A DNA stretch of 64,000 bases, taken from contig NZ_VAWA01000002.1 in assembly GCF_005771565.1 (NCBI RefSeq), positions 1 through 64,000 of the forward strand. The letters run 5' to 3'. The translations under genes and the position numbers were made by a program. The stretch is from Nesterenkonia sphaerica (GTDB lineage Bacteria > Actinomycetota > Actinomycetes > Actinomycetales > Micrococcaceae). Positions 9,491 to 25,139 of this stretch are shown piece after piece. Below the pieces are notes generated by a model that had not been told where the DNA came from, searched no databases, and saw nothing but the letters and a program-made list of their open reading frames with translations. Positions within the stretch are counted from its first letter, which is position 1, and each line of letters begins with the position of its first letter.

Positions 9491-9534
9491 CATGCCGAGT
9501 CTTGAGGCATGCACGCAAGACCTTGCGCTTGCGT
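9491..9534 (+). other. Two short hairpins upstream of smc
   Basis: CATGCC at 9491-9496 pairs with GGCATG at 9506-9511, and ACGCAAG at 9513-9519 pairs with CTTGCGT at 9528-9534. Both lie in the probable smc leader, about 60-105 bases before the start codon. No T-run follows. The function is unknown; they could be protein sites or mRNA structure. Confidence 0.35.
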
Positions 9535-9595
9535 CGGGGCTAAGCTGAACAGGTCAACCGGCAGCCTTTCGCGGCTGAGAGGAGAACCCCGCAGC

Positions 9596-12500
9596 ATGCA
9601 CTTGAAGACGCTCACGGTCCGCGGGTTCAAGTCTTTCGCCTCCGCCACCACCTTCGAATTCGAACCGGGGGTCACTGCGGTGGTGGGCCCCAATGGCTCA
9701 GGAAAATCTAATGTGGTCGACGCTCTGGCGTGGGTGATGGGGGAGCAGGGGGCCAAATCCTTACGCGGGGGCTCCATGGAGGATGTGATTTTCGCCGGCA
9801 CGGCGGCCCGCCAGCCGCTGGGCCGGGCATCGGTCAGCCTGACGATTGACAACTCTGACGCGGCACTGCCCATCGACTACACCGAAGTCACGATCTCGCG
9901 GACCATGTTCCGCTCCGGGGGGTCGGAGTACACCATCAACGGCACCAAGTGCCGCTTGCTCGACATCCAAGAGCTACTCTCCGACTCGGGGCTGGGCCGA
10001 GAGATGCACGTGATTGTGGGTCAGGGCCAGTTGGATCAGATCCTGCAGGCGACTCCCGACCAGCGCCGCGGGTTCATAGAAGAGGCAGCCGGGGTGCTGA
10101 AGCACCGCCGCCGGAGGGAACGCTCTGTACGCAAGCTGGAATCAATGCAGACCAACTTGGAGCGGCTGGAAGACCTGATCGGGGAGATCTCCCGGCAGCT
10201 GGCGCCGCTGGGCCGCCAGGCGAAGGTGGCCCGCCGGGCCCAGCGGATCCAGCATGATGTCCGCGATGCGTTGTCGAGACTGATCGCTGATGACCTGGTT
10301 CAGGCCGCCACCGCCCTGCATGCCTCCTCCCAGGGAGAGCACGCCGACCGCGCTGCTGCAGAGCGGCTGGAGGCCGAGCTGGCACAGCACGACACGCAGG
10401 TTGGCGCCCTCACCACCGAGGCTGAGGGCCTCCGGCAACGTGCCCAGCAGCTCTCTGACGGCCACCACCGGCTGTCCCAAGCTCAGGAACGGCTACGCTC
10501 GGTGGTCTCGATCGCTCAGGAGCGCACCCGGAGTCTCCGCAGCGCAAGCACCGCCCCCCACCCCGGGGGCAGAGACCCCGAGCAGCTGCGCAGCCAGGCC
10601 GACCAGTTAGCAGAGCAGGGCCGGGACAAGCTGGCGGAAGTAGAGGAGGCCCAGCAGAGACTCGAGTCCAGCGGTGCGGCCCGTGCCGCTGCAGAGCAGG
10701 CTCTGGCGGCTGAGGAGACTCGTATTACCGAGCAGCTCCGGGCCATCGCTGACAGGCGTGCCGGGTTGGCGACCCTGCACGGGAAGAAGGAGGCGGCCCA
10801 AGGCAGGGTGGATGCGGCTGCGGCGCGGCGGCGCCGTGCTGAGGGTCAGCTGGAGAATGAGCAGGTGGCCTTGGAGGACACCGAGGCGGAGCTGACGCAG
10901 CTGGAGCAGCACATTGCCAGCGTCGAGACTGGGAATCCGGAGGCTCGCCAACAGCTGCAGAGGGCTCAGCAGCGCTACCAGGAGGCCAAAGCGCTTTATG
11001 ACGACCGGCTGGCCGAGCACCGAACCCTGGAAATCACCGTCAGTGAGACGCGGGCCAGGATCTCCGCGCTGCAGCAGGCTATTGAGGCCGCTGAAGAGCC
11101 GGTCAAGCTCGATGACCCCGGAGCGGCGTTCAGCATAGAGATCCTCCACACGCAGGAGGGCCTGGCCGGCACTCTGCAGCAGGCGCTCGCAGGAGCAGTG
11201 CTGGTCGATGAGAAGGCTTTCGGCGAAGCACTCGTGGCACGAGGCGACGCGACGGCAGCACTCGCCCTGGACAAAGCCGTCATCCGGCAGGGTAAACGCA
11301 TCAGCGGACAAGCCGCAGGTGACACCGGCACCACGCTCACCGGCCAGGTGGAGCAGTTGCAGGAGACATTGGTGCGCACCACTGAGCAGCTGAAGAGTCT
11401 CAACGCTGAGGTCCAGCGCTGTGAGGGTGACGTGGCATCGGCTGAACACCACGTCAGTGAAGCCTCCGATGCCGTCCATTCCAATGAGACAGCACTGGCT
11501 TCCTCAGCTGACCAGTTATCACGCCTGAAGCGGGATGCTCAACGGTCCCAGGAGCGCATCGACGGCCTGGTGCGAGAGATTGAACAGGCGGAAATAGCTG
11601 CAGGAGATGCGCAGGAGCAGCTGGATGAACTTGCCGCGCGGGTGGAAGTTGCGCAGAGCGAAGACACGATGGAGGAACCCTCCACGGCAGAGCGTGACCG
11701 ATTGGCAGAAGAGGCCTCATCCAAACGCCGCGTCGAAGTCGACGCCCGGCTGGAGTTGCGGGCCACTGAGGAGGAGCACAAACAGCTGCTGGACCGGGCG
11801 GCGGGGCTGCGACGCTCAGCGGCAGCGGAGGAGGACCGGCAGCAGCAAGCCCGCCGGGAAGCGAAGAGGCGCCAGGAGCAGGCGGCACAGGCAGAGCAGA
11901 TCGGGGACGAAGCGCAGATGGCTGTGCGGGACATCTCAGGACAGCTGGCTCGCATTGAGAAGGCACGTGACGCCGCCCAGCGCCAGCACGACCAGCTGCA
12001 GTCGCATCTGGCTCAATTGGGTCAGAGGAGAGCAAAGGATGCAGCTGAGTTGGCGGAGGTCACGGCTCGGCTCCATCAGGCGGAGCTGAAACAGACAGAG
12101 TTCAGGCTGGCGTTGGAGGCAGCCGAAGCCCGCGCGGAAGAGGAGCTCAGCCTGAGCGCGGAGTATCTGATTGAGCACTATGGGCCCGATCAGGGAATCC
12201 CGGACCATGAGGCCGACGATGAGCACGGCTCTTCCCGGCCCTATGTGCGTACGGAGCAGGAGCAGCGCTTGACGCGAGCCAGGAAAGATCTCAAGGCGCT
12301 GGGCAAGGTAAACCCGCTGGCACTGGAGGAACATGCTGCCCTGGAGGAGCGGCATAGGTATCTGCAGGACCAGCTGAGTGACCTGAAGTCCACCCGCCAG
12401 GATCTGCTCAACATCATCGCCGAGGTGGATTCCACGGTGCACCGGGTATTCTCGCAGGCGTGGGAAGACACGCGTGTGCAGTTCGAGCGAGTGTTCTCCC

Positions 12501-12937
12501 GGTTGTTCCCCGGGGGCGAGGGTCGGTTGGAACTGACCAATCCCGAGGACATGCTCAATACCGGTATCGAAGTTCAAGCCCGGCCTCCGGGAAAACGGAT
12601 CCGCCGATTGTCGCTGTTGTCGGGCGGAGAACGGTCTCTGACGGCCGTGGCGCTTCTGGTGGCGATCTTCAAAGCCAGACCAAGCCCTTTCTACGTGATG
12701 GACGAGGTGGAAGCGGCGTTGGATGATACGAACCTCTCCCGCCTGCTGGTGATCTTTGAGGAGTTGAGGGAGAGTTCACAGCTGATTGTCATCACGCACC
12801 AGAAACGCACTATGGAGATCGCTGACGCCCTATACGGGGTGTCTATGCGACAGGACGGCTCGACTCGGGTAGTGTCCCAGCGGCTACGTCAGGCCGCTGC
12901 CGCCGAAGAGGCCAAAAAAATGGAGAGTAACCGATGA
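9596..12937 (+). CDS. smc: Chromosome segregation ATPase SMC with a shortened hinge
   Basis: A protein of 1113 residues. Walker A GPNGSGKSN is at about 31-39, the ABC signature LSGGERS near 1005 and Walker B VMDEVEAALDD shortly after, with two long coiled coils rich in Glu, Gln and Arg between them. It would form condensin with ScpA and ScpB, which are not in this window. The hinge between the coils is only about 80 residues (roughly 500-582); actinobacterial SMC hinges are usually much longer and carry a conserved glycine motif that I cannot find here. The start ATG 9596 follows GAGAGGAG; an upstream ATG at 9509 lies in the leader hairpins. Its last codons contain the ribosome site of the next gene and overlap its ATG. 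Confidence 0.95.
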   Translation: MHLKTLTVRGFKSFASATTFEFEPGVTAVVGPNGSGKSNVVDALAWVMGEQGAKSLRGGSMEDVIFAGTAARQPLGRASVSLTIDNSDAALPIDYTEVTISRTMFRSGGSEYTINGTKCRLLDIQELLSDSGLGREMHVIVGQGQLDQILQATPDQRRGFIEEAAGVLKHRRRRERSVRKLESMQTNLERLEDLIGEISRQLAPLGRQAKVARRAQRIQHDVRDALSRLIADDLVQAATALHASSQGEHADRAAAERLEAELAQHDTQVGALTTEAEGLRQRAQQLSDGHHRLSQAQERLRSVVSIAQERTRSLRSASTAPHPGGRDPEQLRSQADQLAEQGRDKLAEVEEAQQRLESSGAARAAAEQALAAEETRITEQLRAIADRRAGLATLHGKKEAAQGRVDAAAARRRRAEGQLENEQVALEDTEAELTQLEQHIASVETGNPEARQQLQRAQQRYQEAKALYDDRLAEHRTLEITVSETRARISALQQAIEAAEEPVKLDDPGAAFSIEILHTQEGLAGTLQQALAGAVLVDEKAFGEALVARGDATAALALDKAVIRQGKRISGQAAGDTGTTLTGQVEQLQETLVRTTEQLKSLNAEVQRCEGDVASAEHHVSEASDAVHSNETALASSADQLSRLKRDAQRSQERIDGLVREIEQAEIAAGDAQEQLDELAARVEVAQSEDTMEEPSTAERDRLAEEASSKRRVEVDARLELRATEEEHKQLLDRAAGLRRSAAAEEDRQQQARREAKRRQEQAAQAEQIGDEAQMAVRDISGQLARIEKARDAAQRQHDQLQSHLAQLGQRRAKDAAELAEVTARLHQAELKQTEFRLALEAAEARAEEELSLSAEYLIEHYGPDQGIPDHEADDEHGSSRPYVRTEQEQRLTRARKDLKALGKVNPLALEEHAALEERHRYLQDQLSDLKSTRQDLLNIIAEVDSTVHRVFSQAWEDTRVQFERVFSRLFPGGEGRLELTNPEDMLNTGIEVQARPPGKRIRRLSLLSGGERSLTAVALLVAIFKARPSPFYVMDEVEAALDDTNLSRLLVIFEELRESSQLIVITHQKRTMEIADALYGVSMRQDGSTRVVSQRLRQAAAAEEAKKMESNR

Positions 12938-15750
12938 GACTTTCAATTCCGCTTGGAACTGCTCCGAAGCGTGTGACCATCCGCAGCGCCGAGGCCGTCA
13001 CGTTCCGGGTGCCGATGGACCTCAAGGCCGAGGACTCGCAAAGGACTATTGCTCCATTCAATTACCTCGTTCACCTCACAGCCGCGACCGCAGGTGGAAA
13101 AGAGGTCAGCGGTTTGGGTGAGGCGCAATCGCGTCCCCACCAGACTGGAGACTCCCACGAGCATTCCTGGCCTTTTCTCGATGAGGCACTGGCGAGACTC
13201 GTGGGCGAAGAACTGGACTTGCGTGATCCACTGAGCGACATTCGCTCCCGTATTCGGGCGCTGGAAACCAAGGCCGGTGAGAGTGAGTCACTTCCGGTTT
13301 TTCCATTTCGGGCGACAATCATGGGCATCGAAACTGCGCTGTTAGACCTCGCCGCAGCGGCGCTCGGGATGACCGTGGCAGACCTCCTTGGCCGGCGCAG
13401 GGTCATGCCCACACCTATTCCTCCGGTGCTGCGGCACCGGGACGCCGAGGCCATCGACAGGTTCTTCAGTGGCGTATCGCCGAGGCAGCGGCGCCCGCTG
13501 CGGTTGTTGGGTACAGGGGACGTCGAGGCAGACCTCGAGCATCTGCGACACGTGGCGACAAGTAGGAGCCGACTCCACCGCAGCTCGGCCGCACAGCCTC
13601 TGTGGATGAATTTTCGCGGACGACTTGATGTTGAACAGGCCCACCACGTAGTCCGCACAGCAGTCCAGTGGTCAGCAGAAGGCCAGCTGCCGAAAACGGT
13701 GATCCTGCAGAACCCTCTTCCCTCAGAGGCGCACGAGGAGACCATGGAGCTGCAACGACTCGCAGACGAATTGGCTTCCGGGTACACCACGTCCCCAGAT
13801 GTGCGGTTGTTGGCGCGCAATGCCGGGCCCGACGTCACGGCGGATCTGGTGAAGTCCGGTGCCGCAGGCGGGGGACTGCGCATGATCAACCTTCGGCCGG
13901 CACAAATCGGAGGCGTGCTGCGAACCCTAGAGCTGGCAGAAGAAATACGGGCCCACTCCCCACAGGCTCAGGTGCTACTGACCCACTTCCCGGGAGCTTC
14001 GCGGATCACCACGATGCTGCATCGGGACATGGCCAAAGCAGTGCCAAACGTGGAATACCTGTCGACGACGGCAGACGTGGAGAAGCGGTTTAGAGTTTCG
14101 GGCCGCCGGTCGAGATGGCGGCGCACTCCGCTCCTTCGTCTGGGATTGGGCTTGCAGCCGTATTACGAAGACTTGGTCACCCAGGCGCGCGCTCGAGTCC
14201 TGCATCCTACGCCGCCTCAACCCGCTGTGGGGAACAAGCGCCCCAATACGTACGGGGATGTAGATTACATTTCACCCATTGGCGCATACGCCGTGCACGG
14301 CCACATCGTTGAAAGGGAGGCCTTGGCACACGGCCTCAACAGCTGGAGGTTCAACAAGTCCAGCATCGTCGTCTCTGACACAGCAGGGACCCAATTGCCC
14401 TTCCGGACCACGCGCTGGCCCCTGTCCGGCGTGGTCGCAGCCTCGGTCGCCAGACATAAGGAAGCCACGCGCATTCTGCTCAAACGAGCGGGAGTCCCGG
14501 TCCCGGAAGGCCGCACATTCCACGAAGGTGACCACGGACTCGCCGTGCAGTATGCCCAGAGAATTGGTTTCCCAGTGGTGTTGAAACCAGCCGAAGGGTC
14601 CATGGGGGTTGGCGTCACCGCCAATATCCGCAGCGAATCTGAACTGGACACAGCTTTGGAAATGTTCTCTAAGACCGCCCACGGGAATAATGAGTTCATT
14701 GTCGAAAAACACATCAATGGTGGGGATTACCGCATTATGGTGATCGGCGACCACGTGGCGGCGGCAGTGGAACGCATTCCGGCCAATGTCGTAGGTGATG
14801 GGGTCCAGACTGTTGGCCAACTCATAATGGAAAAAAACGTGGCCCGGCGAGCCAATCCTCACTTAGGCCCTCTTAAGATCCGGTGGGATGCAGCGGCAGA
14901 GTACCAACTGCATAAGGTGGGTTACGGTTTCGACAGTGTGCTTCCTGTTGGGGAACGGGTTTACCTTCTCAGCACCAACAACCTCACGCAGGGCGGAGAG
15001 TCTATTGAGATTCTCGACGACCTGCATCCCAGCATTCAGGAAGCTTGTGTGAAGGCCGTTCAGGCGGTACCGGGGATGGGGTATTGCGGCGTCGACTTCC
15101 TATTGGAAGATCACACCAAACCCCTCGAGGAGCAGGACGCCGCCATCTGTGAACTCAACGCTATGGCTGCTCTCCCCGTCGCCGAGTATCCCGTCTATGG
15201 GACACCCCGGCGGTTGTCTGAACAGTTCGTTTTTGAGTGTGCGGACGCATTTGGTCTACAGGCGCAAGCTCAACGGGCTGAGAACTTGAACCTTCGGCTT
15301 ACCATTCGCGGCGGGATTAAGGGTGTGGGCTATGGCAGGTGGTTTGCGCGGCGTGCTGCCCGTTCAGGGCTGGTCGGATGGGTGAAAAGCACCGGGGAGC
15401 GCGAGGCCGAAGCACGTATTTACGGCCCCACTGCGGCTGCAGCCGCGATGGTAACCGTGGCAATACTGGGGCCACCGAAAGCCGCCCCGGAGTCTGTAAA
15501 GGCGATTCATGTCCAAGATGACTTGGACACCGTCGAATTTGTTCTGCTTAATGAGGCCGCCGACGAGGGCAACGGAACCGGAATCGAGCCCGGCCCAGGG
15601 GGCGCAGCGGAGGACTTTGAGGAAGCCAGCAACTTGGAGTCGGAGGGAGGCTCGGTCTCAGACGATTTGAATGAGAGTGAAGTCGCCGAGGAGCAACTTG
15701 ACGCCGAAGCCATAGAGGACAAGCTGGAGGAGACACCAGATGATCGTTGA
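12934..15750 (+). CDS. Fusion: degenerate enolase-superfamily domain + ATP-grasp ligase + acylphosphatase-like domain
   Basis: A protein of 938 residues. Residues 1 to about 415 follow the dipeptide-epimerase/muconate-cycloisomerase layout, but the catalytic positions are changed: the first metal Asp aligns with Asn226 (LWMNFRG), the second with Gln259 (ILQNPLP), the third with Arg295-Asn296 (LLARNAG), the C-terminal lysine with Arg321 (NLRPAQIGG), and no KxK is visible. Residues about 500-775 are a cyanophycin-synthetase-like ATP-grasp that looks intact: KPAEGSMGVGV, EKHINGGDYR, PANVVGDGVQT, and metal ligands Asp721, Glu740 and Asn742. Residues about 785-870 resemble acylphosphatase without its catalytic Arg and Asn. 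The last 65 residues are highly acidic. ATG overlaps the smc stop, with GGAGAG as ribosome site. An amide- or peptide-forming ligase is inferred; substrates are unknown. Confidence 0.85.
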   Translation: MRLSIPLGTAPKRVTIRSAEAVTFRVPMDLKAEDSQRTIAPFNYLVHLTAATAGGKEVSGLGEAQSRPHQTGDSHEHSWPFLDEALARLVGEELDLRDPLSDIRSRIRALETKAGESESLPVFPFRATIMGIETALLDLAAAALGMTVADLLGRRRVMPTPIPPVLRHRDAEAIDRFFSGVSPRQRRPLRLLGTGDVEADLEHLRHVATSRSRLHRSSAAQPLWMNFRGRLDVEQAHHVVRTAVQWSAEGQLPKTVILQNPLPSEAHEETMELQRLADELASGYTTSPDVRLLARNAGPDVTADLVKSGAAGGGLRMINLRPAQIGGVLRTLELAEEIRAHSPQAQVLLTHFPGASRITTMLHRDMAKAVPNVEYLSTTADVEKRFRVSGRRSRWRRTPLLRLGLGLQPYYEDLVTQARARVLHPTPPQPAVGNKRPNTYGDVDYISPIGAYAVHGHIVEREALAHGLNSWRFNKSSIVVSDTAGTQLPFRTTRWPLSGVVAASVARHKEATRILLKRAGVPVPEGRTFHEGDHGLAVQYAQRIGFPVVLKPAEGSMGVGVTANIRSESELDTALEMFSKTAHGNNEFIVEKHINGGDYRIMVIGDHVAAAVERIPANVVGDGVQTVGQLIMEKNVARRANPHLGPLKIRWDAAAEYQLHKVGYGFDSVLPVGERVYLLSTNNLTQGGESIEILDDLHPSIQEACVKAVQAVPGMGYCGVDFLLEDHTKPLEEQDAAICELNAMAALPVAEYPVYGTPRRLSEQFVFECADAFGLQAQAQRAENLNLRLTIRGGIKGVGYGRWFARRAARSGLVGWVKSTGEREAEARIYGPTAAAAAMVTVAILGPPKAAPESVKAIHVQDDLDTVEFVLLNEAADEGNGTGIEPGPGGAAEDFEEASNLESEGGSVSDDLNESEVAEEQLDAEAIEDKLEETPDDR

Positions 15751-16975
15751 GCCTGTCGTAAGTTCTCGTGTTGAGCCACCGCCGCTGGCCTCAGTGAACT
15801 TGGGCCTTCCAATGCCCTTTGGCCGGTGCCCAGCCGACCTCTATGACGGTTGGGTGCTTCATGAAGCGGCGCTCCGCAATGGCCTCAACACACTCCTCTT
15901 CCCTGGTCAGGCTCTTATGGCATTTCCCGGGGAGGACCCTACCGGAGGCGTGGCATTCGCTCACGGAGTCGCAAACTCCACGTGGATTTCTGCGGCCACC
16001 ATGGTTCAGGACAAGCGGATTCGCCGTGACGTGTTAGACGCGGCAGGGATCCCGCAGCCCCGAGGCCGGGCATTTTCCTTGCAACGCGGGAGAACCTACG
16101 CCAAAGAGTTTGCGGAAACCATCGGCTACCCTGTGGTTGTTAAGCCCATGGTGGGAGATTCCACAGTTGAGGTGATGCCTCGTCTCCGAAACGCGGACGA
16201 CCTTGATCAGGCCATTGATTACTTGTGGAAGGTGCCGCCCAGTCGCGCTAATTTCACCCAAGCCTCGTATGCCTTTACCCAAATTTTGTCTCCTAAAACC
16301 AGCTCGAGTACTCGCACGCGGGGCACCTATCGTTACCTCGTGGAAGAGCACGTGGCAGGTCAGTACCTCAGGCTGCTCCTGGCCGACGGGCGTTTGCTGT
16401 CCGCGGTCCACGCACCAGGCGGCCCTTGGAATCTCGGAGAGGGGGTCCGGGACGTCACCGGAGAGATTCACGCTGACATCGAGGCATTTGCCCAGGGCGC
16501 AGCGGAGGCTACCCCGGGGATGCCGGTCTTGACTGTCGACATCGTGGTGAACGATTTCACGGGGCCGACGGCTCATGAGAACCGGCCTGTTCTCGTGGAG
16601 CATTCGGAACGACCGTGGATGTATCTGCAGCATGTCGCTGATGAACGGCGAATAAGCGAGCTTGGTCATGAATTATTGCAGTCCTCGGCCCGGCATGCCG
16701 GACTCACATTACCCGGGTCCGGCATGGGCACGCAGGAGCGTGTGACTTTCCGTTGGGAAGGGTTGTCGCAGGTAGCTGAGGATATTCAAGCGGCCGAGGC
16801 AGCGGCAGGCCAGATGCAGCTGGATCTTCGCTTCACCTCTACCGATCCCGTAGCGGGAGTAGTCTGCGGGGAAGTCTCAGGGCCTCCCGCAGTGATCGCT
16901 CTGCTGAGCGAGTTTGTGATCGATGGACACGTACTTACTGCGCCCGCTATGGCTGTCGAAACCCGACCAGCGTGA
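15740..16975 (+). CDS. ATP-grasp protein with degenerate active site and acylphosphatase-like tail
   Basis: A protein of 411 residues, paralogous to the ATP-grasp part of the preceding gene. Shared segments are the pre-domain EAALRNGLNTLLF at about 42-54, the helix DKRIRRDVLDAAGIPQPRG at 91-109 and the strand PVVVKP at 131-136. The glycine-rich loop that follows is lost (MVGDSTVEV), and the last metal Asn aligns with Ser289 (VEHSERP), while Asp267 and Glu287 remain. A short C-terminal domain (about 333-395) looks like a degenerate acylphosphatase. It may be a structural or regulatory partner of the upstream enzyme rather than an independent ligase; that is inference. Its ATG overlaps the preceding stop by 11 bases, with GGAGGAG upstream, so the two are coupled. 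Confidence 0.82.
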   Translation: MIVEPVVSSRVEPPPLASVNLGLPMPFGRCPADLYDGWVLHEAALRNGLNTLLFPGQALMAFPGEDPTGGVAFAHGVANSTWISAATMVQDKRIRRDVLDAAGIPQPRGRAFSLQRGRTYAKEFAETIGYPVVVKPMVGDSTVEVMPRLRNADDLDQAIDYLWKVPPSRANFTQASYAFTQILSPKTSSSTRTRGTYRYLVEEHVAGQYLRLLLADGRLLSAVHAPGGPWNLGEGVRDVTGEIHADIEAFAQGAAEATPGMPVLTVDIVVNDFTGPTAHENRPVLVEHSERPWMYLQHVADERRISELGHELLQSSARHAGLTLPGSGMGTQERVTFRWEGLSQVAEDIQAAEAAAGQMQLDLRFTSTDPVAGVVCGEVSGPPAVIALLSEFVIDGHVLTAPAMAVETRPA

Positions 16976-17025
16976 GGTGCACGTGAGTGTCCCCCTTAGA
17001 AAACTGAAATGTACCCTTTGTCGAC

Positions 17026-17056
17026 TTCAGGTGAGGCGCTGTAAGAGATGCCTGAA
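17026..17056 (+). other. Inverted repeat in the gap before the double ATP-grasp gene
   Basis: TTCAGG at 17026-17031 pairs with CCTGAA at 17051-17056 within the 120-base gap 16976-17095. The repeat is short and could be chance. No convincing promoter boxes are visible here. Confidence 0.2.
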
Positions 17057-17095
17057 TGAGACTAAAGTCTGTACACCCCCGATACATAAGGGCAG

Positions 17096-19687
17096 ATGAT
17101 GTTAGACAATAATAGTAAAGACGTTCCTCGTGGCGCCGGAATCGATGATCTGCTAGAAGCGTGCGGCCTTGGGGACCAGAAGAGTTTCGAGATACTTCGA
17201 CTGTCAGACTCTGAGGCGGTGGTTTTCGCATGTCCAGGTAATGCTGGATCTGTACGAAGAATAGCTGTCTCACGGAGCAATGCCAGGCACGTATCGGCCG
17301 TCGGCGCCGAGCCAATAACCCGGACAGATGAAGCCGTGGCGGCTGTGGCAGAATTGCGAGAAGCTAACCCGCACCAACTGATTCTTTATGTCTCATCGGA
17401 TGAGAGTCCCGAAGGTTCGTCTGGCGTTAGAAACATACTTATAGCGGGGGCAAGTATTGCTCTCGTCGGGGGTCAGGTCGATGCTTTCACCCTGGACATC
17501 ATAAAGAACAAGGCGTTGATCAAGGTACCACAACAAAGTGAGATAGGCAGCGGGACCGGCCGTCTTCAAATGAGTTTCACCTTGGAGCGCGATTCCGCAG
17601 GTGTGGACTTGTGTCGGGTTGCTGTAAGGCCCTCGATGCAGCCCTTTGGATCAGAAACCCCCACACTCCGGGAGCGTGTCGGTGACGCATACTCAGATGC
17701 TCTCCTCAGGTCTAGGCACCCCATGAAGTTGTTGGAGATCTTGGAAATTGCCGGGCTTGACGAGCAGGCACCATATCTGGAGCTCACGCTTCCGACTACT
17801 GGTGAATTGGGCTCGCAGTCACTGGAGTCCCTGACGACAAGAGCCGCTTGGCACGAAGGGTCCGGGGGCGAATTTGCTGTTGCCTCCAAACACCTCACTA
17901 CTTCTCGGGCGATTTCATACGAGCTAGAGCGCCGGGGCATAAGTGCGCCTTTGATTGGAAAAAACTTCGTCGTTACGGACGAGCCGGGTTCGTCCCAACT
18001 GTATTTCCTGACCAGCAGCCATGACACGCCGTACACATCCATCAAGGCAGCAGGCGACAAACGAATCTCAAGACTCCTGCTCGAGTCAAGCGGCGTTTCC
18101 ATCGCCAAGGGGCGTTATTACGGGGCATCAACTGAATTTGCAGCAGCCAAAGACTGGATGGCGGAGCTCGGTCGTGTTGTTGTGAAACCTGTCGGCGGGA
18201 CCAAAGGCAAGGGTGTCACGGTAGGAGTGACTTCAGAGCCCGCATTACGTAGTGCATGGGACCGGGCTTTCGCGGCAAGCCGAGGTGCCGGAGTGTTGGT
18301 GGAAGAAGTCTTCGTCGGCACTGAAGCCCGCTTTACCGTCGTGGGCGATCAGTGCATAGCTGTGTCTCTTCGAATCCCACCGACTCTGGTGGGTGACGGT
18401 AAGAAGACCATACGAGAACTGATTAATACCAAGAATGAGGTACGGCGCCTGAACCCGCACCTCGCGACGCGTCCCATCATCCTCGACCAAGGCAGGGTAG
18501 CTAAGCTGCGCGAGCAGGGGCTCACTCCGGCCTCAGTGTTGGGAGCCGGCGAAGAATACATCGTGGATCATAAAGCTGGGTTCTCTACCGGTGCCGAGAG
18601 TGTGGATATCACCAATGAGATCCACCCAAGTTACCTGGAGGTCGCCGCTCGTTCTATTATGTCGGTGCCAGGTTTACCTATAGCTGGCGTAGACATCATG
18701 GCCCACGACTTTAGTGCTCCTGCTGACCCAGAGAACTACATAATTGTCGAGATTAATAGTCAACCTGGTATTGGTGCCCATCATTTTCCAGCCCACGGCC
18801 GAGCGCGGAATGTTGCTGGAGAAATTGTCAGACTGCATCAAATACCCCGACATAAGAGGCGTGCGCCGGCAATAAATATAGTCGGCTCGGCTTCCCAATC
18901 CAATTTAAAGAGTCTGAATGTTGATACTAGTTTGTTGGCACGCGAATTTTCTGATCGCGGATTTGATATAACTTGGCTGTCTTCTGATTATTTCCATGCC
19001 TCAAAAGGTAATCTAAGAACTAGCGTTTGGCGCTCATTCACCAGCCTCACTGGTAAGGCGTCCGTCTTTGCAACTCGGTCTCCAAAGGTTGCAATTCATC
19101 TCCTGGAGCAGGCTAACGTCGCCCTTCCCCGACGGATGAAGGTTTTTAAGCGGGATCTGGCACCCACTGAGACAAGGAATGCGAGTCGCGCCTTAGCATT
19201 TATTGAAAATAGTGTTGTTGCCTCGCTGCGGATCGGTAGCCAGATGCCGGTACGGGTCGACTGGACAAACCGAGAAAACTTCATGGCTGTTTGGCAACGA
19301 CTTTGGCGGGGTGCCCAGAAAGGAGTCATAGTTCAGGAACTGCTTGACGGGGAGCAACTGCGCCTTCTAGTATCCCATGGGGAGGTTGTAGCGGCCGTCA
19401 GCGGTGATAAAGATTCGATTCGACCCGTACCCGATCAGGTAGTGGGTGAGTACGGCTCGGTGGCGGTCACCGCGGCTGCTGCCTTTACAGGTCTCGACAT
19501 CTGCGAGGTGGTGCTCAACGTCATCGCACCTAATCAACCGCGTGCCGATGGTAATCACGAGGTACTAGCGGTGCGACCGGCCCCCGATCTTAAGGAGTAT
19601 GGAACGGTTTTTGCGGGAGGCCAGCGATCCCTAGCAAGAGCGATAGTCGACAGCCATGTGACTGCCTTGGCCGCGCTTGAGGAATAA
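17096..19687 (+). CDS. Tandem double ATP-grasp protein, cyanophycin-synthetase-like
   Basis: A protein of 863 residues. Residues 1 to about 290 form an N-terminal part I do not recognise. The first ATP-grasp (about 310-585) is intact: VVVKPVGGTKGKGVTV at 361-376, EEVFVGTEARF at 403-413, PPTLVGDGKKTIRELI at 428-443, and metal ligands Asp533, Glu552 and Asn554 (VEINSQPG). A second repeat (about 590-860) keeps VQELLDGEQLRLLV near 746-759 but lacks the lysine/glycine loop and the metal triad, so it is probably inactive. The start ATG 17096 has AAGGG upstream; ATG 17099 is equally possible. Base composition falls visibly over 18.85-19.05 kb, unlike the neighbours. It converges on the MurF-like gene. 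A peptide-bond-forming ligase is inferred; substrates unknown. Confidence 0.82.
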   Translation: MMLDNNSKDVPRGAGIDDLLEACGLGDQKSFEILRLSDSEAVVFACPGNAGSVRRIAVSRSNARHVSAVGAEPITRTDEAVAAVAELREANPHQLILYVSSDESPEGSSGVRNILIAGASIALVGGQVDAFTLDIIKNKALIKVPQQSEIGSGTGRLQMSFTLERDSAGVDLCRVAVRPSMQPFGSETPTLRERVGDAYSDALLRSRHPMKLLEILEIAGLDEQAPYLELTLPTTGELGSQSLESLTTRAAWHEGSGGEFAVASKHLTTSRAISYELERRGISAPLIGKNFVVTDEPGSSQLYFLTSSHDTPYTSIKAAGDKRISRLLLESSGVSIAKGRYYGASTEFAAAKDWMAELGRVVVKPVGGTKGKGVTVGVTSEPALRSAWDRAFAASRGAGVLVEEVFVGTEARFTVVGDQCIAVSLRIPPTLVGDGKKTIRELINTKNEVRRLNPHLATRPIILDQGRVAKLREQGLTPASVLGAGEEYIVDHKAGFSTGAESVDITNEIHPSYLEVAARSIMSVPGLPIAGVDIMAHDFSAPADPENYIIVEINSQPGIGAHHFPAHGRARNVAGEIVRLHQIPRHKRRAPAINIVGSASQSNLKSLNVDTSLLAREFSDRGFDITWLSSDYFHASKGNLRTSVWRSFTSLTGKASVFATRSPKVAIHLLEQANVALPRRMKVFKRDLAPTETRNASRALAFIENSVVASLRIGSQMPVRVDWTNRENFMAVWQRLWRGAQKGVIVQELLDGEQLRLLVSHGEVVAAVSGDKDSIRPVPDQVVGEYGSVAVTAAAAFTGLDICEVVLNVIAPNQPRADGNHEVLAVRPAPDLKEYGTVFAGGQRSLARAIVDSHVTALAALEE

Positions 19688-19745
19688 CCCGGAGCCGTCG
19701 CAGCCCCCGAAGCTTATGCACAGCCGAGGGCCCGTACTGCCGCTT

Positions 19746-21200
19746 CTAGGCTAGACGCCAGTTCGTGGATTTCATTGCCTCGGCTACGCGGTTAAGACCA
19801 GTGCCGTGAGATGCCTTGAGCAGAACTGCAGCGTCTTCCCGAATGTCTGCTTGAAGAAGTGCAATAAGCTGTTCCGGGGTCATCACATGTGCGCCTCGGA
19901 TCTTGTCGGGCAGAGCCTTCCAAGCGTTTACCATCAGCGGGCCGACCAAATACACTTTATCGGGCTCTGAGGCAGCAATCGCAGGTGAAAGTTCAGCGTG
20001 CAGTTCAGCTTCGTTGGGGCCCAGCTCGAGCATGTCACCCAGCGCCAAGATTCGATGACTGCCGCTGTATTGTTCAGCGAAATCGGTCATTGCCGCTCGA
20101 ACAGATGCGGGGTTCGCGTTAAAGGTCTGGTCCACAACGGTGAGGCGCCGTAAGGGGCGCTCCACCACAGTGACTTCACCGCGGCCTTCAACTGCCCTAA
20201 AGTCCGCAAGCCCCTGCAGGTGTTCCTGAACATCCAGTCCGAGGGCTTCAATCACACCTAGGACTGCGAGGCTGTTCAGAGCGTTATGTTTGCCGGAGGC
20301 ACCCAGGGTGTATTTCAATGTGCGATCGAGGGAGACCGCAGTTACCTGTCTGGAATGCGCGTCATAGTCAGACAAACGAATGTCTGCGTCTCTTGCCACG
20401 CCGTATGTAATGACCCGGTCAGAATTCTTGTTGGCAGACGCCATGAGAATCTCTGAATGCGGTGCATCAATGTTGATGACGGCTACCCCCTCCTCCGAGA
20501 GCCCTTCTAGAAGGGTAGCCTTGGTCTGCGCCGTCTCCCTCAAGGAGCCGAACGCTTCCATGTGTGCTTCAGCAATGGCAGTGATCACAGCCACGTCGGG
20601 GCCAAGAATCTGTTCAGCCCCAGGCAGTACGGCGCGGGGCACCTCAAGAACTGCGTAATCTTCGTTCCCTAGCCGCAATGCTCGGGAACGCATGGAGGCC
20701 ATACCGTTCTTGTCACTTCTGGGACTGAAGACCGTGTGTTGGCGCGACAGCGTGGCATTTAGCATAGAGGTGACGGTCGTCTTGCCCATGCTGCCTGTGA
20801 CCGCTATGACTGCTCCGTTGAATGCATCACGCCGCTTGCGGGCTACCGTATTTGCAGCCTTGCTGACGTCGGGCACTCGCAAGACGGCGCACGACACCGG
20901 GGGAGGGGCAACATCTGATCTAATCATCAGAACGACGTCTTTGGACCCTTGGGTGTCGTTTTCAAACCGTTCGGCGAGCTTGACCGGGTCATGGGCATAC
21001 GCCAAGGTGCCCGACAGCACAGCGCCCTTGGGATAACGCCCCACGTTCCGCATGCGCTGCATACGCTTGAGGGACCAAGCGGGGTCGGGTGGAGCTTCCC
21101 AAGTTCCTCCGGTGATACTGGCGAGCTCCGTGGGCCCTATCGCGTTTGAACTCATGTCACGCGCTACAGGATTCTGTGATGGTAAGTCATTGTTGTCCAT
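19746..21200 (-). CDS. MurF-like Mur ligase, probably dedicated to the island
   Basis: A protein of 484 residues. The Mur P-loop TGSMGKTT lies at 135-142. ITAIAEAHMEAFGS around 206-219 matches the conserved His motif, QTKATLLE keeps the lysine that is carbamylated in Mur ligases, and TFNANPASVRAAM matches the MurF YNANP motif. MurF joins a dipeptide, normally D-Ala-D-Ala, to a peptidyl carrier. The presence of a D-Ala-D-Ala ligase gene 115 bases upstream on the same strand makes the same reaction chemistry likely. The N-terminal domain is atypical, and the usual MurF neighbours murE and mraY are absent, so I read it as a paralogue of the housekeeping enzyme. The start is ATG 21200. Confidence 0.85.
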   Translation of the reverse strand: MDNNDLPSQNPVARDMSSNAIGPTELASITGGTWEAPPDPAWSLKRMQRMRNVGRYPKGAVLSGTLAYAHDPVKLAERFENDTQGSKDVVLMIRSDVAPPPVSCAVLRVPDVSKAANTVARKRRDAFNGAVIAVTGSMGKTTVTSMLNATLSRQHTVFSPRSDKNGMASMRSRALRLGNEDYAVLEVPRAVLPGAEQILGPDVAVITAIAEAHMEAFGSLRETAQTKATLLEGLSEEGVAVINIDAPHSEILMASANKNSDRVITYGVARDADIRLSDYDAHSRQVTAVSLDRTLKYTLGASGKHNALNSLAVLGVIEALGLDVQEHLQGLADFRAVEGRGEVTVVERPLRRLTVVDQTFNANPASVRAAMTDFAEQYSGSHRILALGDMLELGPNEAELHAELSPAIAASEPDKVYLVGPLMVNAWKALPDKIRGAHVMTPEQLIALLQADIREDAAVLLKASHGTGLNRVAEAMKSTNWRLA

Positions 21201-21315
21201 GGTGTGTCCCGTTCCAAAAATTACAAGTCGACAAACAATTCAATGCGTAAGCCTGCCAGTTGGTGCCACACACGAAGCTACACGCAGCCACTCGAGTCGT
21301 TATGCCGCGAACGTC

Positions 21316-22470
21316 TCAGCGTAGACCCACGGGGCGGGCTAGCGCCAGCTCGATGAGTTGGTTGATCAGTTCTTGAAAGCTGAGGCCCGTAGCCTTCCAA
21401 ACCTGCGGAAACATGCTGATGGGCGTAAAGCCAGGCATCGTGTTGATCTCATTGATGATGATCTCGCCTCCCGTCGTGTAGAAAAAGTCCACACGAGAAA
21501 GTCCCTCGCTGCCGACAGCTTCAAATGCGAGGACAGCTTGTCGCCGAATATCTTCGCTGACAGCCTCGGGCAGATCAGCCGGGCAGTGCAATCCCGTGGT
21601 GGCGTCGCTAGAGTACTTTGCCGTGTAATCATAAAAGGCCGTCGGCTCTACCTGATGATCCACCACGATTTCGCCCAGTAACGACGCCTGGGCCGGGCTA
21701 CCGTCAGTTGTATCCAGGACCCCACATTCGATCTCGCGCCCGTCGATGCCCTGTTCGATGATGACTTTGGGGTCATGTCTCTGAGCGGTTGATATCGCCT
21801 CGTCGAGCTGTGACCACTCATCGACCCTCGTGATTCCCACAGATGAGCCCGCCCGGGCCGGCTTCACAAATACCGGCAGCCGGAGCGACTGCGCGCGGTT
21901 GAGCGCCTCCTGTGGATCAGTCGTCCATTCCCGCCGTGTAACAGTGACCCAAGGCCCGACGTGGAGCCCTGCCGACTCGAATGCCAGTTTCATGAAGTGC
22001 TTGTCCATCCCCACCGCAGATGCCAGCACTCCAGCTCCCACGTAAGGTACCCGGGCCAATTCCAGCAGCCCTTGGATGGTGCCGTCCTCGCCAAAAGGTC
22101 CGTGGAGCAGAGGCAGAATCACGTCCACCGGGCCCAGCTCAGTGGCGGCGCCGTTTGTCCCTATCTCTACGAGGTGTGCCTTGCCATCTGGCGTGCCGTT
22201 TCGAGCCGGAATGAGTTGAATTGAGTGACCCGTCGGCGTCACACCAGGCGCCTTGCCAGATGCGAAGGAGTGGGTTCGCGGATCGATAGCAGGACGAGTC
22301 CATTGGCCCTCCGTCGTGATCCCCACTTCGATCACCTCGTATCTTGATGTGTCGAATGCTTCCAACACCCCTGCAGCAGTGACGCAACTGACGGCGTGCT
22401 CTGACGACTGGCCGCCATATAGCACCACCACGCGTGGTCTTGCTGCTGCTGTTGTTCGAAGTGCGTTCAC
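21316..22470 (-). CDS. ddl: D-alanine--D-alanine ligase (probable island paralogue)
   Basis: A ligase of 384 residues in the Ddl ATP-grasp family. YGGQSSEHAVS is the N-terminal signature, KPARAGSSVGI the ATP loop, and NEINTMPGFTPISMFP the C-terminal metal/phosphate motif. The omega-loop stretch FYDYTAKY carries the tyrosine pattern of D-Ala-D-Ala-forming enzymes rather than that of VanA-type D-lactate ligases. GTG 22470 is preferred because GAAAGG lies 8 bases upstream; the ATG at 22536 has none. It is transcribed towards the MurF-like gene and diverges from an MFS gene. In related genomes the housekeeping ddl normally lies near gpsA/thiL, so this copy is probably a second one; a genome search is needed to be sure. 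Confidence 0.92.
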   Translation of the reverse strand: MNALRTTAAARPRVVVLYGGQSSEHAVSCVTAAGVLEAFDTSRYEVIEVGITTEGQWTRPAIDPRTHSFASGKAPGVTPTGHSIQLIPARNGTPDGKAHLVEIGTNGAATELGPVDVILPLLHGPFGEDGTIQGLLELARVPYVGAGVLASAVGMDKHFMKLAFESAGLHVGPWVTVTRREWTTDPQEALNRAQSLRLPVFVKPARAGSSVGITRVDEWSQLDEAISTAQRHDPKVIIEQGIDGREIECGVLDTTDGSPAQASLLGEIVVDHQVEPTAFYDYTAKYSSDATTGLHCPADLPEAVSEDIRRQAVLAFEAVGSEGLSRVDFFYTTGGEIIINEINTMPGFTPISMFPQVWKATGLSFQELINQLIELALARPVGLR

Positions 22471-22705
22471 CCTGGGACCTTTCTTATCCTGGTCACAAGC
22501 ACCTGGCTTGAGGTGCTCGCGCTGCCTATCGCTCACCCGCTGAGGGGGTGATGGCGGTCATCACGCATGTCACAGGCTACTACGTGTGGTCCTAGCCTCT
22601 GACTCCTGCAGGACCGTCGGAGCGAACTTGGCACGTACCCTGCTGTTGGCACGGAGTCTTCCACGCCGCCGCACCCGGGAAGACCTGTGTGCCCAATCGT
22701 GTTGA

Positions 22706-23950
22706 ATGCTCTACGTGAGCACATATGCCGAACCGGTTTCGCGGCCTCGGATTCCGCCTGAGCTGAAGGTACTGATTGTCTCTGCCTTCATCATCGCCAT
22801 TGGGTTCGGCATCGTGGCTCCAATCTTGCCTCAATATGCATCGGACTTCGGAGTCTCAGCACTAGCGGTTTCCGCAGTAGTCTCGGCTTTCGGCCTTTTT
22901 CGGCTCTTGTTCGCACCGTTGTCCGGGCGACTGACCCAGCGGCTGGGCGAGACACCCGTCTATGTAGTGGGTCTGCTGATTGTCGCTGCATCCATGATTG
23001 CCACGGCGTTCGCCCCCAGCTACGAACTGCTGCTGATCTTCCGGGCGGTGGGCGGCATCGGCTCGACGTTCTTCACCGTGTCCGCGATGACCTTTCTGGC
23101 ACGCAAAGCTCCTCCGCAGATCCGAGGGAGAGTTTCGGGTGCCTACGCCTCAGCATTTCTGATCGGCAGTGTGGCAGGCCCACTTCTGGGGTCTGCCCTG
23201 CTGGTGTTCGGCCAGCGCGTGCCATTTCTCGTCTACGGAGGCGCCCTGATCCTCGCTGCGGGTTTCGTCTTCATAATGCTGCGGCAGTCGAGGCTGGAGG
23301 ATCGGCACAACAAGGACCAGCGCCAACGCGCGACATTGGCCGAAGCGTGGGAACACACCAGTTACCGGGCAGCACTCGTCTCTGCGTTCGCCAATGGGTG
23401 GGCGACCTTCGGGGTGCGCAATTCCATAGTGCCCCTCTTTGCTGCCTCGGCCTTTGTGGGCGGAGGTTTCATTATCGATTCCGGGCAATTGGCGGGGGTT
23501 GCGCTGGCGACCTTCGCGGTAGGCAACGTCGCTGTGGTGTTGACCCTGGCCAAGCGCTCAGATCAATGGGGACGCCGACCCCCGATCATGATCGGTCTGA
23601 GCGTGGCGGGAGTGGCCACCGGGCTGCTGGGACTGTCACCGGAGCCGTGGGTCTTGCTGGTCCTGAGCCTCATTGCCGGGGCGGGGACTGGACTCATAGT
23701 GCCCGCCCAGCAGGCTGCGATCGCGGACATCGTAGGGGAGGGGCGGAATGGTGGTCCGGTGGTCTCCACCTTCCAGATGACCCAAGACTTGGGCGGCATC
23801 CTCGGTCCGCTGCTCGCAGGAGCCCTGGTGGATCATCTCAGCTATGGCTGGGCTTTCGGCATCACAGGTCTCATCATGATCGTCGGAGCGGCGGCCTGGA
23901 CGGTGGCTCCTGAGACTCTGCCTGCCAGGAGTGACAACTTATCCGATTGA
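22706..23950 (+). CDS. MFS exporter divergent from ddl
   Basis: A membrane protein of 414 residues (or 411 from GTG 22715) with about twelve predicted helices. GRLTQRLGETP matches the loop 2-3 motif, RAVGGIGSTFFTVSAM the helix 4 region, and GRVSGAYASAFLIGSVAGPLLG the motif C region of drug-exporting antiporters. Motif C suggests export rather than uptake. It is divergent from ddl, with 235 bases between the two start codons, and is the last gene before the toxin-antitoxin-like pair. I infer export of the island's product or self-protection; this rests on position only. There is no strong ribosome site at ATG 22706. Confidence 0.85.
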   Translation: MLYVSTYAEPVSRPRIPPELKVLIVSAFIIAIGFGIVAPILPQYASDFGVSALAVSAVVSAFGLFRLLFAPLSGRLTQRLGETPVYVVGLLIVAASMIATAFAPSYELLLIFRAVGGIGSTFFTVSAMTFLARKAPPQIRGRVSGAYASAFLIGSVAGPLLGSALLVFGQRVPFLVYGGALILAAGFVFIMLRQSRLEDRHNKDQRQRATLAEAWEHTSYRAALVSAFANGWATFGVRNSIVPLFAASAFVGGGFIIDSGQLAGVALATFAVGNVAVVLTLAKRSDQWGRRPPIMIGLSVAGVATGLLGLSPEPWVLLVLSLIAGAGTGLIVPAQQAAIADIVGEGRNGGPVVSTFQMTQDLGGILGPLLAGALVDHLSYGWAFGITGLIMIVGAAAWTVAPETLPARSDNLSD

Positions 23951-24100: not shown

Positions 24101-24463
24101 ATGGCAGATCTGAAGTTCCGTCCCGAAGAAATCCGGTCACATCGTCTCGCCTCCGGCTCCAGTGGGGTTCCTGAGTGGGTGGCGGAGTTCGTCAGCTGCG
24201 CCCAGGAAGCGGCGGAGCGTGGGGAGAGTGTCAAGGTCACTTTTGAGCGGGAGATGCTGACTACTTCCCAGGCTGCTGAGCGTCTCAGTCTCGATAAGTC
24301 CACAGTATGGCGAATGGTCCAAGATGGGCGTCTCAAGGCCGAGAAAGTGGGGTCGCACTATCGGATCCCAGCTGAGGAAGTACGTAGGCATGATCAAGAA
24401 CGTATGAGCAACATGGCCAAGCAGCTCTCTGACGAGCTCGCAGCTGATCTCCTCGATGGTTGA
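24101..24463 (+). CDS. Excisionase-type HTH protein, probable antitoxin
   Basis: A protein of 120 residues. The central helix-turn-helix LTTSQAAERLSLDKSTVWRM, followed by DGRLKAEKVGSHYRIPAEEV, is the excisionase/MerR-like DNA-binding form (HTH_17) common in antitoxins paired with PIN toxins. The acidic, helical C-terminus would bind and block the toxin. The gene overlaps the PIN gene by 8 bases. There is no ribosome site at a normal distance; the promoter position predicts leaderless translation. Autorepression through the inverted repeat upstream is inferred. Confidence 0.85.
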   Translation: MADLKFRPEEIRSHRLASGSSGVPEWVAEFVSCAQEAAERGESVKVTFEREMLTTSQAAERLSLDKSTVWRMVQDGRLKAEKVGSHYRIPAEEVRRHDQERMSNMAKQLSDELAADLLDG

Positions 24464-25139
24464 ACACCTGCGGGTATTCTTGGACGCCAATGTCCTCGCC
24501 GCTCCTGTGACTAGGACGTTATTGCTCGCCGCAGCACGGTTGAGTGGATACAGCTTCATCTGGAGTCAGCATGCCGAAGACGAGGCAAGCCGGCACATGA
24601 GGCCGGCAGCCACGTCGGTGGCTACTCTGCGCACTGTTTACCTGGACCAGATGCCGGTCTCCCCATCCGCTGACGTAGCCGGACGATTCCTGGCGACCCA
24701 GAGAAGCGACCGACAGATCCTGGCTGATGCGAAGGAAGCCGGCACGCATTTTCTAGTGACCAACAATGTGAACGACTTTGCGGTCACAGACCTAAGACAG
24801 ACAAGGATCAGCGCCGTAACGCCGGATCTCTTCATGTCACAGCGAATGACGACCACAGCCTATGAATATGCTCTCAATCTCATTGCCTGCTCCCAGAAGC
24901 ACCCGCCGACGACTGTCGAAGTGTTACACCGGAAGTTGGCCCAGAACCACCCTCGACTGTTTGCCGCACAGAACCAGGTATACAACCTCGACCCAATAGC
25001 CTCGCCCCATCACTTGCCCGAAGTCGAATTTAGAGGCACTCGGTGTATCCAATGCGGCACTTTGAATTCCTCAGAGCTGCCGCTTGGGCTGGACCCGAAG
25101 TGCGCGGGCGGGGCAGCGGCCAGAAGCCCCGAACCCTGA
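24456..25139 (+). CDS. PIN-domain ribonuclease, probable toxin
   Basis: A protein of 227 residues. The N-terminal FLDANVL supplies the first acidic PIN residue; the later acidic positions lie in SDRQILADAKEAG and TNNVNDF, as in VapC-type RNases that cut RNA with Mg2+. It starts inside the upstream HTH gene, typical of type II toxin-antitoxin pairs. It is longer than the usual 130-140 residues: after about residue 140 there is an extra helical segment and a tail with the cysteine-bearing stretch CIQCGTLNSSELPLGL, which I do not recognise. The target RNA is unknown. The module lies at the border between the ATP-grasp island and the conserved amtB-ftsY block. Confidence 0.82.
   Translation: MVEHLRVFLDANVLAAPVTRTLLLAAARLSGYSFIWSQHAEDEASRHMRPAATSVATLRTVYLDQMPVSPSADVAGRFLATQRSDRQILADAKEAGTHFLVTNNVNDFAVTDLRQTRISAVTPDLFMSQRMTTTAYEYALNLIACSQKHPPTTVEVLHRKLAQNHPRLFAAQNQVYNLDPIASPHHLPEVEFRGTRCIQCGTLNSSELPLGLDPKCAGGAAARSPEP

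Follow-up and report, generated by a model that had tools for sequence, protein, structure and literature searches.

Stand-Alone ATP-Grasp and Mur-Type Ligases in a Variable Locus Between smc and an MFS Transporter Gene of Nesterenkonia sphaerica

Introduction

The closest described counterparts of the ligase island considered here, which lies between smc and a gene for a major facilitator superfamily (MFS) transporter in Nesterenkonia sphaerica, are cyanophycin synthetase (CphA1/CphA2), the teichuronopeptide (TupA) system of Bacillus halodurans, poly-gamma-glutamate synthetase (CapB/CapC/CapA), the peptidoglycan Mur pathway with Ddl and MurF, and the archaeal pseudomurein gene clusters. TupA is tied to teichuronopeptide, an acidic wall polymer of poly-gamma-L-glutamate and polyglucuronate that aids the life of B. 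halodurans at high pH (PMC8153356). The archaeal pseudomurein clusters place Mur ligases alongside an ATP-grasp protein in a setting other than bacterial murein synthesis (PMC11915815). Alkaliphiles and halophiles are found among Nesterenkonia, according to references listed in PMC8875376.

The window analysed is a 64,000-nucleotide stretch of N. sphaerica (assembly GCF_005771565.1, contig NZ_VAWA01000002.1) and constitutes contig 12 in a genome of 2.79 Mb and 86 contigs. The ~10 kb between smc and the MFS gene encode the proteins P1, P2, P3, MurF2, and Ddl2. This island is a variant of ATP-grasp/Mur amide-ligase loci and one of the variable inserts at a Nesterenkonia hot spot, which holds a genus-wide family of shuffled ligase sets. 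We consider the chances about even that the island assembles, non-ribosomally, a D-amino-acid-containing peptide for a surface polymer resembling teichuronopeptide or polyglutamate. This explanation is favoured because TupA, CapA, Asp/Glu racemase, glycosyltransferases, and UDP-glucose dehydrogenase accompany the ligases elsewhere.

P1, P2, and P3 share their ATP-grasp type with cyanophycin synthetase, and the island also contains a Mur ligase, but as a separate protein. The domain scan detected no Mur-ligase domain fused in the chain of P1, P2, or P3, as it is in CphA, and the island differs further in its enolase- and acylphosphatase-fold domains, two ATP-grasp partners, and stand-alone MurF2. 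The likeness to the teichuronopeptide system comes from contig C75 of the same genome, where CphA-type ATP-grasps are encoded with TupA and UDP-glucose dehydrogenase, and from the genome G155, where TupA stands by P1–P2; however, the window island has no TupA and uses other ligase families, and its polymer is a predicted one. As for poly-gamma-glutamate synthetase, CapA (PGA_cap) is encoded in relatives next to the same kind of ATP-grasp ligases or as a fusion with them, whereas the window island lacks CapA, and the polymerising enzyme would be an ATP-grasp and not CapB. MurF2 and Ddl2 are homologous to enzymes of the peptidoglycan Mur pathway and might work in the same sequence, but they are second copies, MurF2 has no recognisable UDP-MurNAc domain, and their genes are accompanied by those of ATP-grasp ligases instead of the dcw cluster. 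The archaeal pseudomurein clusters likewise combine Mur ligases with an ATP-grasp; the latter belongs to another family, however, and no MraY-like gene is present here.

Results

The P1–P2 Ligase Pair and P3

P1 (12934–15750, plus strand, 938 aa) consists of an enolase-superfamily domain (residues ~1–400), an ATP-grasp domain (~461–765), and an acylphosphatase-fold domain (~785–865). Its ATP-grasp domain matches the cyanophycin synthetase model NF010623 (2.5e-70) and the CphA structure 7lg5 (3.4e-42), and an alignment indicated that 18 P1 homologs retain the ATP-grasp residues, VxKP and E-x-N among them. The closest relatives with species names are proteins of N. sedimenti and N. alba (61–62% identity over the full protein), and full-length orthologs with 55–63% identity were found in four other genomes.

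P2 (15740–16975, plus strand, 411 aa) is the partner ATP-grasp and has a C-terminal beta-alpha-beta-beta-alpha-beta domain. It has no match in Pfam. The AlphaFold2 model of P2 (pLDDT of 87) finds its best Foldseek matches in cyanophycin synthetases 1 and 2 (5.2e-11), and the predicted fold is thus that of a cyanophycin-synthetase-type ATP-grasp. In the alignment, the ATP-binding part is largely kept, and a conserved SERP motif replaces the Mg-binding E-x-N of P1. This replacement suggests an altered metal site, with which P2 might be a catalytically inactive partner or carry out ligation by another chemistry.

A profile search of 30 genomes of the genus revealed 14 intact P2 loci and a broken one, distributed over 13 genomes; an extra partial match in G170 is located inside a P1-like frame. 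A P1-type gene adjoins P2 in all 15 loci, and P2 in turn adjoins 14 of the 15 strongest P1-type genes (E ≤ 1e-115), and this recurrent co-occurrence among the ATP-grasp genes supports the earlier note in part. The distant actinobacterium G873 encodes a 1068-aa protein (L097:2286-5489) composed of P2 followed by the ATP-grasp and acylphosphatase parts of P1; it matches the P2 profile at 2.1e-58. The fusion lies on a short contig, which may adjoin L098, a locus with CapA and an enolase–ATP-grasp–acylphosphatase protein.

P3 (17096–19687, plus strand, 863 aa) comprises an N-terminal domain (~1–265), a CphA-type ATP-grasp (~270–600), and a P2-like second ATP-grasp (~650–850). It matches TIGR02068 (1.9e-71) and the CphA structure 7wac (8e-42), and its C-terminal part matches the P2 profile (6.1e-6, probability 85%). 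Like P1, it has a CphA-type ATP-grasp with conserved active-site residues. The structure model is confident only at ~267–582, and the first 265 residues are poorly modelled. The idea that the N-terminal domain is a degenerate CapA was not supported (hhalign probability 0.1).

Alternatively, the ligases could produce a cyanophycin-like reserve inside the cell or a peptide that acts as a compatible solute, either of which would be of use where salt is high. Among solved structures, cyanophycin synthetases are nearest to P1, P2, and P3, and P1 and P3 additionally match the model for N-acetylglutaminylglutamine synthetase. However, P1 scores far below the CphA family cut-off (237.7 vs. 877 bits), and the CphA-style fused Mur-ligase domain is missing; genes for a cyanophycinase or an acetyltransferase were not recognised near the examined loci, and the company of racemase, epimerase, CapA, and TupA would be left unexplained. 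We regard such a product as quite improbable.

The enolase and acylphosphatase domains of P1 were absent from the earlier note's account. The former scores 22.5 bits against the MR_MLE_N cut-off of 22, and when its homologs are included, matches to dipeptide epimerases and muconate cycloisomerases emerge for the family; the latter scores 30.8 bits against a cut-off of 22.5. In the enolase barrel of the window P1, the positions occupied by Asp, Glu, Asp, and Lys in dipeptide epimerases carry Asn, Gln, a non-acidic residue, and Arg, i.e., the three metal ligands and the acid/base Lys are gone. The catalytic Arg and Asn of acylphosphatase are replaced with Gly and Ser. The enolase domain of the P1 orthologs from the four other genomes also has no metal ligands, yet it is ~50% identical. 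In contrast to the window copy, P1 homologs of G149 (L071:8474) and G151 (L082:82-4443) keep the barrel residues Lys, Asp, Glu, Asp, and Lys, and the G151 homolog aligns at the catalytic positions with the L-Ala-D/L-Glu epimerase of B. subtilis (1jpm) and with 3r0k. The acylphosphatase Arg and Asn are kept in several P1 homologs, for example in L082, L055, and L066. Judging by these intact sites, the ancestral P1 was probably a ligase joined to a functional epimerase and a functional acylphosphatase. If the two folds still have a use in the window protein, it may be binding or scaffolding.

The same losses could mean that these domains are decaying and that the island is mostly a relic. The third-codon-position G+C content (GC3) of the island genes, 0.54–0.66, is below that of core genes such as smc, amtB, ftsY, and ffh (0.75–0.89), which would also fit decay; this difference is compatible with acquisition or weak selection on codon usage as well. 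However, all reading frames of the island are open, the ATP-grasp residues are retained, and both the existence of full-length orthologs in four genomes and the conservation of the ligand-less enolase domain are difficult to reconcile with a relic. We find this explanation highly improbable.

Literature searches combining ATP-grasp with acylphosphatase/amidoligase and Nesterenkonia with ATP-grasp found nothing; the Iyer 2009 amidoligase survey was not compared.

The MurF2–Ddl2 Module

MurF2 (19746–21200, minus strand) is a MurF-like Mur ligase with intact central and C-terminal domains (PF08245, 1.1e-32; PF02875, 5.3e-15) and with the P-loop and NANPxS motifs kept in the alignment. It matches TIGR01143 at 1.3e-71, although with 241.7 bits against a cut-off of 288.6, and the match begins at residue 95. 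The N-terminal UDP-sugar-binding domain is diverged: no convincing alignment with the housekeeping MurF was obtained, and a UDP-MurNAc-binding domain was not recognised. On the phylogenetic tree, MurF2 proteins form a clade separate from the housekeeping MurF with a support of 100/100, although the branch of the window copy is long. MurF-like matches at the class level in other families (G356, G298, G320, and G530) group with the housekeeping MurF and are no special kin of the island gene.

Ddl2 (21316–22536, minus strand) is a second D-Ala-D-Ala ligase with both Ddl domains (NF002528, 2.2e-137, 457.7 bits vs. a cut-off of 262); the conserved residues aligned with the housekeeping Ddl are retained. 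The genome has its housekeeping MurF and Ddl genes at C34:48819 and C34:145182, and both island genes are second copies. The earlier note had described the island as a set of enzymes that form amide bonds, with MurF-like and Ddl proteins distinct from the housekeeping ones, a view that would have had to be given up if these were the only copies in the genome; it is upheld. The six genes it listed, the MFS gene included, are indeed at their positions, with domain matches well above chance.

A second Ddl (E ≤ 1e-110) occurs in only 3 of the 395 genomes of the family, namely the window genome, G149, and G153, and a MurF2 gene adjoins it in all three (the window; L071 of G149; L067 of G153). In two of these genomes, the pair is located near P1–P2. 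In G149, it lies on a 25.6-kb contig without smc, between ATP-grasp genes that include a P1–P2 pair; the MurF2 gene of this genome is seemingly split by a frameshift, and an S11-like carboxypeptidase, under the Pfam cut-off, is encoded nearby. In G153, an S13 DD-carboxypeptidase gene directly follows MurF2–Ddl2. A 673-aa protein with no Pfam match (L067:9796-11817) is encoded directly upstream of this gene group. MurF2–Ddl2 is a rare module separate from P1–P2. The six genes had been taken for one system; the proposed set is not refuted, yet it falls into two modules rather than one fixed system. Most P1–P2 loci are without MurF-like and Ddl genes, and the G153 pair shows that the two can also be found apart.

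MurF2–Ddl2 may be a passenger without relation to the ATP-grasp genes, beside which it would lie in the hot spot by chance; as a spare D-Ala-D-Ala branch, it would buffer the cell against D-cycloserine or stress on the wall. This would be compatible with the other explanations. It fits the opposite strand, the lack of the pair in most P1–P2 islands, its occurrence with a DD-carboxypeptidase and without P1–P2 in G153, and the fact that the three second Ddl copies form no supported clade, so that a single transferred clade of these copies is not supported either. On the other hand, sharing of the hot spot does not explain the G149 pair, which stands between ATP-grasp genes on a smc-less contig, and MurF2, unlike a spare MurF, has no recognisable UDP-sugar domain of this enzyme. 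A passenger seems to us possible yet doubtful.

The Hot Spot Between smc and the MFS Gene

The core gene smc (9509–12937, plus strand) is the left border of the hot spot in the window and in many relatives, and the MFS transporter gene (22706–23950, plus strand) is the right border; both are outside the system. In relatives without the island (e.g., G159, G153, G163, G107, and G160), the gene order is smc–MFS–amtB–ftsY. The earlier note considered the smc–ftsY neighbourhood broken; an extra 10 kb is indeed present between smc and MFS, but smc–MFS–amtB–ftsY is the normal order for the genus. The MFS protein is 73–86% identical at the same position across relatives, including island-less ones, and is backbone because it is conserved in place there. 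Its proposed role as the exporter of the product was rejected, the gene being unlinked to the island.

Other ATP-grasp sets are located between smc and MFS/amtB in G012, N. alba, N. sedimenti, G155, G158, G161, G165, and G151, and G162 carries a degraded set at this spot. The spot spans two contigs in the assemblies of N. alba, G165, and G151, and the flanks were joined by inference there; the loci of G150 and G166 are identical to N. alba L046 and N. sedimenti L045, respectively, in the coordinates and the matches of their genes. A DDE transposase gene lies within the N. sedimenti set. CphA-type ATP-grasps are present in all 30 genomes of the genus, with up to 15 matches in one genome. In G012, ligase genes flank smc on both sides: a 1236-aa CapA–ATP-grasp protein (L028:14512-18222) is encoded divergently from the other end of smc.

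In line with the small exported product proposed in the earlier note, the set could make a soluble non-ribosomal oligopeptide for export (an antibiotic or a siderophore-like or signalling compound). Stand-alone ATP-grasp ligases make such peptides, and the ligase TabS is used with a dipeptide epimerase to build L-Cys-D-Val (PMC13338154), which is the pair type of the first two domains of P1; the strong variation of the sets between species fits specialised metabolism as well. However, the MFS protein belongs to the backbone, the window island has no tailoring, resistance, or regulatory genes, and relatives pair the ligases with CapA, TupA, and glycosyltransferases. An exported peptide is thus weakened to an unlikely product; the neighbours elsewhere favour a surface polymer.

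The smc stop and the P1 start overlap by 4 bases (ATGA), as is also seen in N. alba, N. sedimenti, and G012, and P1 and P2 overlap by 11 bases. Because of these overlaps, P1–P2 are probably transcribed together with smc. Promoter and terminator scans gave a signal no higher than that of shuffled sequence. A role in anti-phage defence was rejected, since PADLOC found nothing for P1–P3, MurF2, and Ddl2. Farther downstream in the window (24101–25139), a gene for a 120-aa HTH_17 protein overlaps that for a 227-aa protein starting with VFLDANVL; the pair resembles a PIN-type toxin–antitoxin pair, and its HTH part weakly matches mad1 of the MADS defence system.

Gene Content of Related Loci

In G155, genes for an Asp/Glu racemase and a TupA-family ATP-grasp directly adjoin P2–P1. 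The G151 homolog mentioned above is a 1453-aa enolase, CapA, and CphA-type ATP-grasp protein with intact enolase metal ligands, and its gene adjoins P2–P1. CapA–ATP-grasp fusions are encoded near P2–P1 in G138 and G158 too, and CapA is also fused to ATP-grasp in the distant G903. One cluster of the latter genome encodes an ATP-grasp 43% identical to that of P3, an Asp/Glu racemase, an enolase–ATP-grasp–acylphosphatase protein, the CapA–ATP-grasp, an ATP-grasp–acylphosphatase protein, and a sugar-transfer-associated ATP-grasp. In the G171 island, P1–P2 pairs are found amid glycosyltransferases, a nucleotide-sugar-dehydrogenase-like gene, and an asparagine-synthase-family protein. This island, of ~50 kb (C1:418-478 kb, L064–L066), has many CphA-type ATP-grasp matches and two P1–P2 pairs.

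The window's genome has a further cluster on C75 (82000–99000, L039) with genes for UDP-glucose dehydrogenase, UDP-GlcNAc 2-epimerase, three glycosyltransferases, two TupA-family proteins, and CphA-type ATP-grasps; by its gene content, it reads as teichuronopeptide-like. TupA was detected in 25 of the 30 Nesterenkonia genomes and in none of the 14 control genomes. The sole CapA match of the window's genome is on C44, outside the island.

Discussion

By family, the island enzymes would be cytoplasmic ligases joining amino acids via acyl phosphates; from this and the gene context we infer a subunit partnership, substrates, an acceptor, and a surface location. P1, whose site is conserved, would activate amino acids or short peptides as acyl phosphates, the reaction typical of its family. 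P1 and P2 may form one two-subunit ligase, in which P2 would bind or extend the growing chain or bind a second substrate. P3, as a putative single-chain version of the P1–P2 tandem, would add further residues. At the family level, Ddl2 is expected to make D-Ala-D-Ala or a related D-dipeptide, and MurF2 would attach it to an acceptor, which is probably not UDP-MurNAc-tripeptide, because the ligase core of MurF2 is kept and its N-domain is diverged. Finally, the product, most likely an oligo- or polypeptide with D-amino acids, would become, join, or decorate an acidic wall polymer, as the gene company suggests.

Several observations weigh against a surface polymer. The catalytic residues of the epimerase and acylphosphatase domains are lost in the window P1, and the N-domain of P3 (~265 residues) matches nothing that explains it. 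MurF2–Ddl2 is located on the strand opposite to P1–P3, and the G153 pair occurs without P1–P2. Genes for a racemase, CapA, TupA, a glycosyltransferase, a membrane anchor, and a flippase are all absent from the window island, and the link with the surface is one of association, seen in other loci.

A broader possibility, which we consider unlikely, is that Nesterenkonia and some distant actinobacteria have a second murein-like peptide pathway, which would place D-amino-acid peptides on a surface glycopolymer and in which ligase sets are swapped. Its parts would be paired ATP-grasp ligases of the cyanophycin-synthetase type that carry their own dipeptide epimerases, along with Asp/Glu racemases, MurF2–Ddl2, and DD-carboxypeptidases. 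If this is true, swapping of ligase sets at the hot spot would vary the surface chemistry between species.

P1–P2 is a recurrent pair and a putative two-part ligase, accompanied by a ligase–epimerase fusion, and we found a description of either in no searchable paper; the island is a potential new source of stand-alone peptide ligases. The loci link cyanophycin-type ATP-grasps with wall-polymer genes such as TupA and CapA, and they provide a testable gene set by which acidic amino-acid polymers of the wall could be made in alkaliphilic or halophilic actinobacteria.

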